A stretch of 53,509 bases of DNA, taken from contig CALQRA010000005.1 in the NCBI GenBank assembly GCA_943332855.1, forward strand, positions 1-53,509. The letters are read 5' to 3'. The stretch comes from Candidatus Kuenenia stuttgartensis (GTDB taxonomy: Bacteria; Planctomycetota; Planctomycetia; Pirellulales; UBA1268). The notes below the pieces were generated by a model that worked only from the letters and a program-made list of their open reading frames with translations, did not search any database and had not been told where the DNA came from. Each line of letters begins with the position of its first letter. Within the stretch, counting starts at the first letter, position 1. The position numbers and the translations under genes are program-made. Below are positions 19,299-25,552 of the stretch, one piece after another.

Positions 19299-20621
19299 TT
19301 ACGCACCGAGATTCCAACCGCCGATCACCACCGCACCAGCCTGCCCCTGGGGGGTGACCGACGAAGAAAGGAAGGAGGCCCCCGCCGGATCGCCGCTGAC
19401 CGCGGCCCGGATCGGACAGGCCGGATCGGGCGTCGTATGGTTGAGCAGCGGGAAAAGGGTGCCATGACGCAGCGCCCACAGGCTGGCGATGCACTCCACG
19501 ATCCCGCTGCCGGCGCCGAGGTTGCCGAAGTTGGCCTTGGCGGCCACCGTCGGGATCGCAGTCGCATCCGCGCCGAGGAGATCACCGAGGGCCTCGGCCT
19601 CACTCCGATCACCCCCCACCGTGCTCAAGCCGTGGGCATGGAGATGACCGGGGCGTCCCCCGGGCAGTTGCGCCATCCCGAGGGCCCGCGCCATCGCCAA
19701 GCCGAGGGCCTTCCGCCGCAGCCCGATGTTGAGTCGATCGGCGGCGTGGCGCGACGCATGCCCGAGGACCTCGCCGAGAATCGTCGCCCCGCGGCGCCGG
19801 GCGTGTTCGAGCTCCTCGAGGACGAGCACCGCTGCCCCCTCGCCCAGCACCATCCCGCTCCGGTGGCGGTCGAAGGGTCGGCTCCAGGTGGTCGGATCGT
19901 CGGGGCCGAAGGCCACCTGCTCGCTCTGCAGAGCGTGGACGGTCTTCATGGGGTGGATGCGCGTGCCGGTCGCCCCGGCAAGCATCACGTCGGCGGCGTT
20001 GCGCTGGATCGTCATCGTCGCCTCCCCGATGGCGACATGCCCACTGGCCTCGCGGAGGGTCAGCGAGTTGCTCGGGCCCCGGAGATCGTTGTAGATCGCG
20101 ATGTGGCTGGCGGGCATGTTGGGGAGATACTTGAGCAACCAGAGCGGATTGAGCAGCGGCATCCCGTCGACCGCCCAACGATCGAACTCGAAGGCCCCGT
20201 CGGGGCCCCGGCAGTTGGCGACCCCGGAAGTGAAGTCCTCCGGAAGCGTGAGCATGTAGTCCGACCCGAACACGCACCCGACCCGCTCCGGGACACGGTC
20301 CGCCCCCGACAGGCCGCAATCATGGAGCGCGCGCTGGGCCGCGGCGACGGCCATCTGGCTCTCCCGGCACATCACTTTGAGCCCCTTGCGGATCGCCTTC
20401 TTCGTCTCGGCCTCGAGCGGACCGAAGTTGTCGATCTCACCAGTGAAGCCGCGGGCTTCGGCGCCGTGGTGGAGCGGGAGGCCGGCGGTGGGGAACTGCT
20501 CGATCGGCCCGACGGCGCTGCGTCCGGCCACCAAGCCCCCCCACAGATCGTCAGGCGCCAGGCCGAGCGGTGAGACGAGCCCCACTCCGGTGACAACGAC
20601 ACGGCGGACGGAAGCGGTCAT
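19299..20621 (-). CDS. beta-ketoacyl synthase-like protein lacking catalytic residues (chain-length-factor-like)
   Basis: This 440-residue protein aligns by eye along its length with KAS II (FabF) enzymes, including [15 protein letters not shown] at the start and [20 protein letters not shown] in the middle. Two of three catalytic positions are changed. The active-site cysteine of TACAS is Glu191 (LREAS), the first histidine is kept (His330 in HAHGLST), and the second histidine is Asn367 (AKANFGN). The C-terminal FGFGG motif is also absent. Such loss is known in the chain-length factor (KS-beta) subunits of type II polyketide synthases, where Cys is usually Gln. It may therefore be a non-condensing partner of FabF; this is inference. 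The ATG at 20621 is 79 bases after the preceding gene's stop, and the gene is last in the fatty-acid run. Confidence 0.85.
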
Positions 20622-20700: not shown

Positions 20701-21699
20701 TCAGGGCGACCCGCGGAGCCTGGGCTCCACAAAGACCACCACATCGGTTCGCTTGGCATCGGCCAGCAGTGCCGCCGAACCGGCGGTATTGTTGCCCGGC
20801 ACCGGCCACGGCACCAACCCCAGCCCGACGACGAGGACCTGCGTCGTCGGCCAGCGGAACCGCTCGCCGATGCGGACGGCCGAGACCTGCGGGACCTCAA
20901 TCTGGGAACGCTGCCGGTCGGGCGTGGGGAGCGTGACCGGCACGATCGCCATCCGCTCGATCTGGTCGATACGGCAGCGGAGGACCGCCTCGACGGCGCT
21001 GCCATCCCGGGTGAGGAGCGGCTGGACGTCGAGCGTGATCCCCTCGTCGCAGGCCGCCGGCAAGGTCTGCCACCCTGGGGCCACCGATGACGGCTGGATT
21101 TCCTGGACATACGGCCGTTTCCGCCCGCCGGCGAGGACCGCGGGGAGGCCGTTGGCCGCCTGAACCGCGCCGGTGGGGAGCTCAGCACAGTCGCCGCGGC
21201 GACGGAACATCGCCAGGAGTGTGGCCGCCTCCTCGCGCGACATGATCCAGGCCTGGACGCCGGGCGTGGCCGCTGGAATCCCGTGGAGGAGCGCGCGGGC
21301 GTCGTTCCGCCACGACGGAGTGCCCACCCCCATCACCCTGACGGAGAAGCGATGGGGCGTGTCGGCCGCGGTGGTGAAGCGGGCGACAATCTCCCCGACG
21401 CGCTCCTGCATCTGAGCTTGATGGAACACCACCAGCCGGTTCTCGTCGGCCGAGAGCGATGCCGGCACGACGCCGTGCCAGGCGGCATAGCCCGTCTCCT
21501 GGAGCACCCAGTCGACGATGTACTTCTGGCTCCCCGGCCCGGCCTGTCTGACCCACGGTGAGATGTCGTGGGATGCGAGGGTCTGGCCCGCCTCGGCCGG
21601 CAGTTGGGCCAGTGACTCGCTCACCCGGAGCCCGAGCAGGATCGAGAGCAGGATCGAGATCCAAGCCGTGACGCGGATGGGAGGAGAGCGATGAGCCAT
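20701..21699 (-). CDS. exported protein with a secretin-like C-terminal region
   Basis: This 332-residue protein has an N-terminal signal peptide (hydrophobic about residues 11-27, then VSESLAQ). The C-terminal part resembles the beta-barrel signature region of secretins: an EGITLDVQPLLTRDGSAVE segment, a series of short beta strands, then TTQVLVVGLGLVP, which recalls the TxVxVxDGQTxxxGGL motif. It lacks the length of a full secretin, so an accessory protein is more likely; this is a weak similarity by eye. The ATG at 21699 follows an in-frame extension (from 21843) that contains no good signal. It lies between fabF and the degenerate ketoacyl synthase on the same strand, with 148 and 79 bases on either side. 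I can assign no function. Confidence 0.6.
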   Translation of the reverse strand: MAHRSPPIRVTAWISILLSILLGLRVSESLAQLPAEAGQTLASHDISPWVRQAGPGSQKYIVDWVLQETGYAAWHGVVPASLSADENRLVVFHQAQMQERVGEIVARFTTAADTPHRFSVRVMGVGTPSWRNDARALLHGIPAATPGVQAWIMSREEAATLLAMFRRRGDCAELPTGAVQAANGLPAVLAGGRKRPYVQEIQPSSVAPGWQTLPAACDEGITLDVQPLLTRDGSAVEAVLRCRIDQIERMAIVPVTLPTPDRQRSQIEVPQVSAVRIGERFRWPTTQVLVVGLGLVPWPVPGNNTAGSAALLADAKRTDVVVFVEPRLRGSP

Positions 21700-21847
21700 C
21701 AAAAGGCCCCCGGGGGAGCGAGCCGCACGCGTCCGGGCGAAACCGCCCGGGCCGCAGCCAAGCAGACCATCAACGGAGGGGGAGGGTAGGGGGCCCGTGG
21801 TGCCCGCAGCAAGCCGAATCGCCGCCGTCACCGGGCGGATCACGAGG

Positions 21848-23089
21848 CTATTTCAGCCGCGCGAGCACGAGCGAGGCGTTGTGGCCGCCGAACCCGAAGC
21901 TGTTGCTCATGGCCACGTCGACATGGGCCTGCCGGGCAAACCGCGGGACATAATCGAGATCGCAGTCAGGATCGGGGGTCTCGAGATTGATCGTCGGGGC
22001 GATGACCCCGCGGGCGATCGTCAGCGCGCAGACCACCAACTCGATGCCACCGCTGGCACCGAGCGTGTGCCCCAACTGGCTCTTCGTGCTCGAGACCGCC
22101 AAGCGGAAGGCGTGCGCGCCGAAGACCCGCTTCATCGCCACCGTCTCCGCCTTGTCACCCAGCGGGGTGCTCGTGCCGTGGGCGTTGACATATTCGATCC
22201 GATCGGGCCCGAGACCGGCGTCCTCCAGCGCCATCGACATGGCCCGTGCCGCGCCACGCCCCTCTTCGTCGGGCTGGGTGATGTGACCGGCATCGCCGCT
22301 CGCCCCGTAGCCCATCAATTCGCCGTAGATCCTCGCGCCGCGCCGGCGGGCGTGCTCGAACTCTTCGAGAACCACAACGCCGGCCCCCTCGGCGAGCACG
22401 AAGCCGTCTCGGTCGGCATCGAACGGACGGCTCGCCCGCTGCGGATCGTCAGTCCGGAACGAGAGGGCGCGCATGTTTTGGAAGCCGGCCAGCCCCATGG
22501 GCGTCAGCGCCGCCTCGCTCCCCCCCGTCAACATCACGTCGGCATCGCCGCTTTGAATCGACCGGAGAGCGCAGCCGATTGAGTTGCCAGCGCTGGCGCA
22601 GGCCGTGGCAACGGCGAAATTCGGACCCTTGAGCCCGTACATGCTCGACACATGACCGCTGCCAGAGTTGACCATCAGCTTGGGGATCGTGAACGGCGAG
22701 ACCTTGTCGATGCCCTTCGTGAGCAGCCGCTCGTGCTGCGTCTCGAATTCCGACAGTCCGCCGATCCCCGACCCGATGACGACCCCGCAGCGGTAGGGAT
22801 CCTCGCGCGAAAAGTCGATCCCCGAGTCGGTCACGGCGTCGGCTGCCGACGCCATGGCGAACTGCGTGAACCGGTCGAGGCGCCGCAGATCCTTCGGGCT
22901 CGCGATCCCTTGCTCCTCGGCCTTCCAGGGAACCTCGCCGGCGAACTGGATCTTGAATCCGCTCACGTCAAAGAGCGTGATCGGACCGACCCCACTGTCC
23001 CCACGGACGAGGCGTTCCCAGAAGATTTCCATCGGCCGGCCAAGGGATGTGACGACTCCCAAGCCGGTAACGACCGCGCGGCGTTTCAT
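21848..23089 (-). CDS. fabF: beta-ketoacyl-ACP synthase II
   Basis: FabF condenses malonyl-ACP with acyl-ACP in fatty acid elongation. The 413-residue protein is full length. Catalytic residues are all present: Cys164 (TACASAGNS), His304 (VNAHGTSTPLGD) and His341 (KSQLGHTLGASGG). The C-terminal SFGFGGHNAS motif is intact. The ATG at 23089 gives MKRRAVVTGLGVVTSLG. It begins 11 bases after the acpP stop, so the two are probably co-translated. Its intact active site is the direct contrast to the degenerate homologue two genes downstream. Confidence 0.97.
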   Translation of the reverse strand: MKRRAVVTGLGVVTSLGRPMEIFWERLVRGDSGVGPITLFDVSGFKIQFAGEVPWKAEEQGIASPKDLRRLDRFTQFAMASAADAVTDSGIDFSREDPYRCGVVIGSGIGGLSEFETQHERLLTKGIDKVSPFTIPKLMVNSGSGHVSSMYGLKGPNFAVATACASAGNSIGCALRSIQSGDADVMLTGGSEAALTPMGLAGFQNMRALSFRTDDPQRASRPFDADRDGFVLAEGAGVVVLEEFEHARRRGARIYGELMGYGASGDAGHITQPDEEGRGAARAMSMALEDAGLGPDRIEYVNAHGTSTPLGDKAETVAMKRVFGAHAFRLAVSSTKSQLGHTLGASGGIELVVCALTIARGVIAPTINLETPDPDCDLDYVPRFARQAHVDVAMSNSFGFGGHNASLVLARLK

Positions 23090-23100
23090 GGAACGCCCCG

Positions 23101-23337
23101 TCAGGACTGGTGCTTCTCGATGAACTCAACCGCCTGACCCACCGTCTGGATCTTTTCGGCAGCGTCATCGGGAATGTTGATCTCGAACTCTTCCTCGAGT
23201 TCCATCACCAACTCGACGGTGTCGAGAGAGTCGGCACCGAGGTCGCTGATAAACGACGTCTCGGCGGTGATGTTCTCCTTGCTGACCCCCAGTTGAGACG
23301 AGACGATCTCGATCACGCGGTCTTGGACGGAAGCCAC
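23101..23337 (-). CDS. acpP: acyl carrier protein
   Basis: ACP carries growing acyl chains on a 4'-phosphopantetheine arm. The product is 78 residues, acidic, with the attachment serine in [14 protein letters not shown] and the family ending [21 protein letters not shown] chose GTG at 23337 because it gives the expected short N-terminus ([18 protein letters not shown]), and a GGGAGGA site lies eight bases upstream. An in-frame ATG at 23382 would add 15 residues not seen in ACPs. fabF follows 11 bases later. A promoter candidate lies 260 bases upstream. Confidence 0.97.
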
Positions 23338-23714
23338 CTTATGAATCCTCCCGGCGCGACACCCCAGAGGGAGCCGGCCCAACGGAACGGGTCAAAACGG
23401 ATGAATACGCGAGTTTGTGAAGAAGCAGTGTCCTGGGGCGACGCGTGCGATCCCAGGAAGTGTCGGACCGTGACGCCCGATCACTGAAATTGTGTCGCGG
23501 GGGCCATTTCCCCACAACCTTTCGGGAGTGTTTTCGGAGCCGGCCAACCCGCACCGAGCGAGCACCGTCTCGAATATCGGCCGAGTTCGGCACGGTCGCC
23601 GAAGATATACCTGCTCCGCCCCCAGAATGTCCAGACCGAACGAACGCACTTGTCCCCCCAGCCTACCAGCAGATCCTGCGGGCCCCCCAAGGGAGGTTGG
23701 AGAGGACGCCGCGA
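23338..23714. other. 377-base fabG-acpP gap, probable acpP promoter and leader
   Basis: No gene is seen on either strand between the fabG stop and the acpP start. A plausible minus-strand promoter lies at 23604-23633 (see separate entry), leaving a leader of roughly 260 bases. This is long for a housekeeping gene, and I see no strong terminator-like hairpin in it. This gap splits the fatty-acid genes into rpmF-fabD-fabG and acpP-fabF units. Confidence 0.5.
23604..23633 (-). promoter_or_regulatory. putative sigma-70-type promoter for acpP-fabF
   Basis: On the minus strand, TGGACA (23633-23628, five of six to TTGACA) and TATATC (23609-23604) are separated by 18 bases. The element faces acpP. 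This is motif recognition only. Confidence 0.4.
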
Positions 23715-24503
23715 TCAACCGATCATCCCCCCGTCGACGGTCAGAACCTGGGCCGTCACGTAGGCCGAAGACGGGGCCGCGAGGAACAGCACCGCCTCGG
23801 CCACCTCCCACGGCTCGCCGATCCGCTTGGCGGGGACCCGCTTCTTCACCTCCTCAAGCACCAGTGGGCCGAGCGCCGCGGTCATCTCGCTGGCGATGAA
23901 GCCCGGCGCCACGGCGTTGACGGTCACCTTCCGGCCGGCGAGCTCCTTGGCCACCGTCCGCGTCATGCCGATCAGCCCGGCCTTCGACGCGGAGTAGTTG
24001 GCCTGCCCCGGATTGCCGATCTGGCCGACGACACTCGCCACATTGATGATCCTCCCGTAGCGCTGCTGCATCATCGGCCGGCTCACGGCCCGCATGAAGA
24101 GGAACGGCCCGCGGAGATTCGTGGCAATGACCTCGTCCCACTCCTCGTCGCTCATCCGCGGGAGGAGCGTGTCGCGGGTGACGCCGGCGTTGTTGACGAG
24201 GATGTCGACGCGGCCGAACTTGGCGACTGTCGAATCGACCACGGCAGCGACGCTGTCCGCCTTGGAGACGTCGCAGGAAAACTCCTCTGCGGCGCCACCG
24301 GCCGCGCGGATGGCGGCCGCCACGGCGGCGATCTTGCTGGCATTACGGGCCACGAGGGCGACGGTCGCCCCGTTGGCGGCGAGCGTCTCGGCGATCGCTC
24401 GGCCGATCCCCTGCGAGGCACCGGTGACGATCGCCACCTGCCCCGACAGATCGACCTTCAACCGTGCCGCGACCGCGTCTTTGGCTTCCGTGCTCCTACC
24501 CAT
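23715..24503 (-). CDS. fabG: 3-oxoacyl-ACP reductase
   Basis: FabG reduces 3-oxoacyl-ACP with NADPH. The 262-residue SDR protein has the nucleotide-binding TGASQGIG (residues 27-34), NNAG (104-107), and the catalytic Ser157, Tyr170 and Lys174 in the YSASK motif. The ending VTAQVLTVDGGMIG is typical. I chose ATG at 24503, which has a GAGGAGG site about seven bases upstream and gives an N-terminal extension of only about 18 residues before the SDR fold. It follows fabD by 59 bases. Confidence 0.97.
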   Translation of the reverse strand: MGRSTEAKDAVAARLKVDLSGQVAIVTGASQGIGRAIAETLAANGATVALVARNASKIAAVAAAIRAAGGAAEEFSCDVSKADSVAAVVDSTVAKFGRVDILVNNAGVTRDTLLPRMSDEEWDEVIATNLRGPFLFMRAVSRPMMQQRYGRIINVASVVGQIGNPGQANYSASKAGLIGMTRTVAKELAGRKVTVNAVAPGFIASEMTAALGPLVLEEVKKRVPAKRIGEPWEVAEAVLFLAAPSSAYVTAQVLTVDGGMIG

Positions 24504-24562
24504 GGCAATCCTCCTCAGTGAGTGGTGTGGTGTGGGCCCGGCGGGCTGGCAGTCCCCGCCGA

Positions 24563-25552
24563 TCAGTCGATCACTCCGGAGCAGGGGACACTCCGATCGA
24601 TCCGCTTGGCGAGTCCCCGCAGCACGCGCCCCGGCCCGACCTCCCAGAGGGCACGGACGCCGAATCCGCCGATATCGCCAGCCGCCAGAAGGCATTCCAT
24701 CGAGCCCTGCCATTCGACGACCCCGACGACCTGGCGGGCCAGGAGGCGGCGGATCTCCTCTGGATCGGTATGCGGCCGCGCATCGACATTGCTCACGACG
24801 GGGATCCGCGGCGGGCGGATCGGCGTCCGCCCCAGGGCCGCGGCGAGTTCCGCCACCGCCGGTTGCATGAGCTTGGTGTGGAACGCGCCGGCGACGCCGA
24901 GCGTGACACACTTCATCGCCCCGGCGGCGGTCGCGACATCGCGGAGCCGTTCGCAGGCGGCGGTGCTCCCAGAAGCGACGACGTTCCCGGGGCAGAGCAC
25001 GTTGGCGATCTCGAGGACATCCTCCCCGCGGACCTCGTCGCAGAGCCCTGCGATCCGCTCCCGGTCGAGCCCGAGGACGGCGACCATCGATCCCGGGCGT
25101 GCCTCTGCACAGGCCTGCATCGCCCGGCCGCGGACAGCGACGAGGCGGACGGCATCTTCGAAGTCGATCGCGCCGGCAAACACCAGCGCCGTGTACTCCC
25201 CGAGCGACAACCCGGCCGTGACAACCGCCGCATCGACCGGGCACCCCCCGGAAGAGTCGGCGTGACGGGCCCGCAGCACCTCGAGCAGCGCCAGGCTCGT
25301 GACAAGGATCGCCGGTTGGCTGACCGCGGTGGTGTCGAGGGAGGGGGCAGGGCCTGTTCGGCAGATCTCTGCCAGATCGTAGCCGAGGAGGTCGGCGGCG
25401 CGCTCGAAGAGCCGGGCGGCCGACGGATGACCGTCGATCCAGTCCCCGAGCATCCCAACTGCCTGCGCACCTTGGCCTGGAAAAAGGACGGCGACCGCCG
25501 GTCCACCGCCGCCGGGCTTTACGGCATCGCCACCATCAACGGGGCGGGCCAA
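24563..25552 (-). CDS. fabD: malonyl-CoA:ACP transacylase
   Basis: FabD loads malonyl groups onto ACP. The 329-residue protein shows LFPGQGAQAVGM near residues 23-34, the nucleophile serine in AGLSLGEYTAL, and the histidine in GAFHTKLM. The start appears to be TTG at 25552, three bases after the rpmF stop (TGA GCG TTG). An in-frame stop lies just upstream, and no ATG or GTG occurs before the PGQG motif, so this unusual start is close to forced. The tight spacing suggests translational coupling to rpmF. Confidence 0.94.
   Translation of the reverse strand: MARPVDGGDAVKPGGGGPAVAVLFPGQGAQAVGMLGDWIDGHPSAARLFERAADLLGYDLAEICRTGPAPSLDTTAVSQPAILVTSLALLEVLRARHADSSGGCPVDAAVVTAGLSLGEYTALVFAGAIDFEDAVRLVAVRGRAMQACAEARPGSMVAVLGLDRERIAGLCDEVRGEDVLEIANVLCPGNVVASGSTAACERLRDVATAAGAMKCVTLGVAGAFHTKLMQPAVAELAAALGRTPIRPPRIPVVSNVDARPHTDPEEIRRLLARQVVGVVEWQGSMECLLAAGDIGGFGVRALWEVGPGRVLRGLAKRIDRSVPCSGVID

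Follow-up and report, generated by a model that had tools for sequence, protein, structure and literature searches.

Chain-length factors (CLFs) are the inactive members of obligate ketosynthase (KS) heterodimers, in which the other subunit is active and the channel runs at the interface of the two (PMC12664062). Planctomycetes are among the phyla in which KS-CLF gene pairs have been counted (PMC10132072), so tandem KS pairs as such are not new in this group. Residue patterns with Glu or with Asp were printed for Rhodopirellula baltica by Rattray et al. 2009 (PMC2649909), where such paralogues are given a speculative role only, and no analysis of conservation, operon or partner. In rhizobia, the acpXL-fabZXL-fabF2XL-fabF1XL cluster produces the very long chain fatty acid found in lipid A (PMC11901934). 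The window examined here (the whole stretch of DNA analysed, 53,509 nucleotides) encodes a FabF-like protein, KS-E, that carries Glu where the nucleophilic Cys is expected. What is new is that the Cys-less KSs of non-anammox planctomycetes form one clade, in which the residue at the Cys position is nearly always acidic.

KS-E and the operon of the window

The features of the locus are listed in Table 1. The frame of KS-E was verified; it opens with an ATG at 20621, preceded by GAGGAA, and closes with a TAA at 19299. Both ketoacyl-synthase domains (PF00109 and PF02801) were matched in a Pfam search and, together with an AF2 model, they place the protein in the KS (thiolase-like) fold. Against TIGR03150 (FabF / KAS II) it scores 237.8 bits, below the curated cut-off of 493.75. 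The Cys-His-His triad of FabF is replaced by Glu-His-Asn (E191, H330 and N367), and SVTPQGQA stands where NSFGFGGHN would be expected. Translation confirmed Glu191, Asn367 and the missing FGFGG, all reported in an earlier note on this DNA, as well as the intact FabF that it had placed two genes upstream, with a single ORF (P0003) in between. As a KS homologue without its nucleophile, KS-E is in this respect like KSbeta, the chain-length factor.

KS-E is the last gene in the order fabD-fabG-acpP-fabF-P0003-KS-E. It also follows fabF in several families of the order, and in a related family of the same class (f18). Among the 73 KS-E loci with enough flank, fabF lies about 5 kb or less upstream on the same strand in 36, and homologues of P0003 are found upstream of KS-E even where fabF is not nearby (19 of 35 such loci).

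Table 1. Features of the KS-E locus, with positions in the window.
Feature	Position	Strand	Basis or remarks
KS-E, FabF-like, 440 aa, Glu at Cys position	19299..20621	(-)	orthologues, dN/dS, Pfam
KS-E codons 159-193, best-conserved segment	20043..20147	(-)	3.99 bits vs mean 2.90; motif scan
Glu191 codon, substitutes nucleophilic Cys	20049..20051	(-)	alignment and translation
P0003, ~380 aa, signal-like N-terminus	20701..21843	(-)	no match in Pfam/NCBIfam searches
fabF, intact: C164, H304, H341, FGFGG	21848..23089	(-)	TIGR03150 597.8 bits, cut-off 493.75
acpP, acyl carrier protein; longest ORF, start uncertain	23101..23382	(-)	read from translated sequence
fabG, ketoreductase; 5' end approximate, within ORF 23715-25244	23715..24490	(-)	read from sequence
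fabD, malonyl transferase	24563..25552	(-)	LFPGQGAQAVGM, GLSLGEYTAL; read from sequence

Descent of the Cys-less ketosynthases and their association with KS-C

The genome of the window carries two further relatives: KS-D (contig C84; 46% identical), which has Asp at the Cys position, and KS-C, a Cys-bearing KS found behind its own acp and fabZ on contig C11 (L168). Contig C139 of this genome (L006) also encodes a type I polyketide synthase whose KS is intact and is followed downstream by an acyltransferase-like stretch. In genome G108, ORF sizes had suggested that KS-D has an acp and a fabZ of its own; clustering of the proteins did not bear this out, and the reading is withdrawn. In six other bins (L068, L081, L082, L085, L086 and L088) KS-E is 69-91% identical to that of the window, so the title 'Candidatus Kuenenia stuttgartiensis' looks wrong for them.

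In a tree built with references, and covering the non-anammox sequences, all 38 Cys-less planctomycete KSs form a single clade (UFBoot 100; 100/99), present in 100% of bootstraps. Among the 37 members other than that of the window, the residue at the Cys position is Glu in 27 and Asp in seven, with Gln, Asn and Ser in one each; the Ser (L177) has an Asp nearby and may reflect an alignment shift. The member with Gln, the residue of classic CLFs, is L156 7650-8978 (G269), and that with Asn is L159 4422-5696 (G070).

Sister to this clade is a KS of family f31, encoded by the leading gene of its tandem pairs; it retains its Cys (TACSAS), and its place in the tree suggests that the tandem pair probably predates the loss of the Cys. 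In L151 and L165 (G052 and G170), both genes of the f31 pair have the Cys. KS-C is in turn the sister of the Cys-less clade and the f31 KS together (92/96), and FabF is separate from all of these. The CLFs of Streptomyces and the ApeC of E. coli fall elsewhere, and forcing them into the planctomycete clade is disfavoured at a cost of 23 log units (p-AU 0.032, a value of modest weight, with long branches); common descent with the Streptomyces CLFs was not recovered. ApeC is a weak Cys-less reference, since the CFT073 protein still shows TACSS.

KS-C adjoins the Cys-less gene in nine families (f91, f86, f62, f48, f64, f73, f80, f102 and f20). Most of these pairs are directly adjacent or overlapping, with at least one small gene between them at some loci. 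An ACP of ~130 aa and FabZ-like hotdog proteins lie ahead of the pair in f91, f86, f62, f48, f64 and f31, and FabG in some. G304 has a further tandem pair, made up of a gene of the KS-E lineage (with Asp) and one of the KS-C lineage. In the class of the window, KS-C stands with acp and fabZ and without KSbeta (L168, L172, L178, L181 and L184). Nine other families show the gene pairing typical of KSbeta; for the KS-E of the window, KS-C lies on a different contig and fabF stands two genes away.

The distribution of the two genes was followed across 294 genomes of the phylum. A degenerate DNA motif for KSbeta, taken from the conserved KS-E segment and also marking f31, where the Cys remains, is present in 40 of them, and a reversed control pattern had no matches in the genomes listed. 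KS-C occurs in 49, at a threshold of at least 500 bits that was set after a gap between 516 and 476 bits had been seen. Both are found together in 38 of the 40 motif genomes (Fisher 2e-35, a value that ignores phylogeny), and the remaining two are incomplete and fragmented. Part of this co-occurrence stems from shared ancestry. KS-C was found and KSbeta was not detected in g41, a genus of f20 (four genomes). FabF, across the phylum, mostly occurs without any KSbeta.

These distributions do not establish the proposal of the earlier note that KS-E could be a dedicated partner of FabF: in other families the tandem KS belongs to a different lineage, KS-C, and fabF is linked at only 36 of the 73 loci. 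An arrangement in which FabF has KS-E as its CLF-like partner, leaving KS-D to serve KS-C, is unlikely but not far-fetched. It would account for the place of KS-E at the end of the fab gene series, in f18 as in several families of the order; yet the linkage is lost at about 36 of the 73 loci while KS-E is still conserved, and both the pairing with KS-C in other families and the presence of FabF across the phylum mostly without a KSbeta argue against it. Judged by ancestry, KS-C would be the likeliest partner of KS-E; FabF, suggested by the present gene order, would come second. The pairing is ambiguous, as each genome has two Cys-less copies (KS-D and KS-E) and one KS-C.

Conservation and predicted structure of KS-E

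All 40 relatives examined, which span 27 genera, have a KS-E orthologue, and dN/dS of the window's KS-E against six species of its genus is 0.08-0.12 (by the simple NG86 method). Across 99 aligned KS-E proteins, all of one order, R190 and E191 are each conserved in 99, K362 in 98 and N367 in 97; the glutamate and the surrounding residue pattern are far beyond chance. The His330 that the earlier note had described as kept is present in the window's KS-E, but varies among the 99 proteins, with His in 85, Gln in 8, Arg in 3, Phe in 2 and Tyr in 1. The most conserved span of 35 residues is 159-193 in KS-E, and begins at 245 in FabF and at 247 in KS-C; conservation in KS-E is shifted away from the catalytic core toward this segment. 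It aligns with a loop and a strand of FabF, which we take to build the KS dimer interface and the acyl pocket of the partner.

The AF2 monomer of KS-E has the full KS fold (pLDDT 89.2, pTM 0.90), and the closest folds are FabF (Z ~56) and the actinorhodin KS. Confidence is lowest at about 155-170, inside the conserved segment, which might fit a segment that requires a partner, other causes being possible. To look for a precedent of such a heterodimer, the PDB was searched with the sequences of a KSbeta and a KS-C from one tandem pair; the best matches were FabF/KS relatives only.

A role for KS-E as a stand-alone homodimer, either a KSQ-like malonyl-ACP decarboxylase that makes acetyl-ACP primers or a regulator that binds acyl-ACP, appears improbable. 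In FabF, as in KSQ domains, exchange of Cys for Gln is linked to decarboxylation; Glu191 could act like the Gln of KSQ, and the fold matches of the model include structures of FabF C163Q and C164Q. KSQ-type decarboxylases combine Gln at the Cys position with both His, a combination that KS-E does not have: the second His is Asn in 97 of the 99 proteins and the first is lost in 14, and both are indispensable for decarboxylation (PMC2649909). In addition, the fabH of this genome scores over its cut-off, so that no primer route is missing, and a KSQ-like primer maker that compensates for missing FabH is ruled out. Decay of a paralogue, which the absence of the Cys, of one His and of the FGFGG loop could suggest, is rejected as exceedingly improbable, given the low dN/dS, the complete set of orthologues, the invariant R190-E191 and an uninterrupted frame; random residues at the key positions and absence from close relatives, the signs of decay named in the earlier note, were both looked for and neither was seen.

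A probable chain-length-factor-like subunit and the known systems

Taken together, KS-E is probably a non-catalytic, chain-length-factor-like KS subunit, with an origin independent of the Streptomyces CLFs. The likeness to KS-beta drawn in the earlier note gains indirect support from the single Cys-less clade, the tandem genes elsewhere, the shifted conservation and purifying selection. KS-E would pair with a Cys-bearing KS, and its loop and strand at 159-193 would contribute to the acyl channel of that partner, fixing the chain that is made. Its ancestor would be one of two catalytic KSs encoded in tandem in early Planctomycetota, the beta copy, in which an acidic residue replaced the Cys. 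This copy would then, in the class to which the window's genome belongs, have been duplicated into KS-D and KS-E and have left the acp-fabZ-KSbeta-KSC cassette, after which KS-E would have settled behind fabF. For KS-E itself, we infer the heterodimer, the partner, the role in chain length and the product.

A wider proposal is a real, if somewhat tentative, possibility: that the Planctomycetota have a KS/CLF-type heterodimer of their own, derived from a catalytic tandem pair, with an acidic residue and not Gln, and with dedicated ACP and FabZ-like enzymes, which would serve a conserved and undescribed acyl pathway, the f31 pair representing the ancestral state. If so, FabF-like enzymes gave rise to chain-length factors on more than one occasion, and a second, conserved fatty-acid-like synthase is present in planctomycetes. 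It would also offer an entry to planctomycete lipids, including the similar-looking anammox pairs proposed for ladderanes. With a Cys-bearing sister pair surviving, the change of a catalytic homologue into a non-catalytic subunit is directly testable.

Among known systems, the KSbeta (chain-length factor) of type II polyketide synthases of the actinorhodin type shares with the KS-E clade a full-length KS fold without the nucleophile and, outside the class of the window, a tandem position with a Cys-bearing KS near an ACP. The KS-E clade differs in arising separately in the tree (AU p 0.032 against a single clade with the Streptomyces CLFs and ApeC), in having Glu or Asp rather than Gln, in a cassette with FabZ-like and sometimes FabG genes and, in the KS-E class, in a gene unlinked from KS-C.

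The anammox genes kuste3605/kuste3606 (PMC4790861) resemble the cassette, with ACP, FabZ, a Cys-bearing KS and a Cys-less KS in one cluster, and the anammox pairs are part of ladderane candidate clusters (PMC4790861). Anammox-type loci (L231-L245; f59 and f90) show several pairs of a KS and a Cys-less KS, with Val or Phe at the Cys position in f59 genomes and Glu in two f90 genomes (L241/L242). A single clade of the anammox and the other planctomycete Cys-less KSs appears unlikely, as the two were separate in a quick tree. Families f59 and f90 are presumed to be anammox from regular, strong HZS_alpha matches of ~810-844 aa, a marker that also matches many other planctomycetes. Many copies of an HZS_alpha-like domain were seen outside these families in G075, G183, G198, G315 and G328.

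The rhizobial acpXL-fabZXL-fabF2XL-fabF1XL cluster has the same gene order as acp-fabZ-KSbeta-KSC (PMC11901934), a likeness in gene order. In R. baltica, NP_866153 (RB4527) has Glu163, His298, Asn333 and Pro392 in the numbering of Rattray et al. 2009 (PMC2649909), which is the pattern of KS-E, and the Asp163 paralogue NP_865682 (RB3714) has that of KS-D; in both cases the likeness is one of residue pattern.
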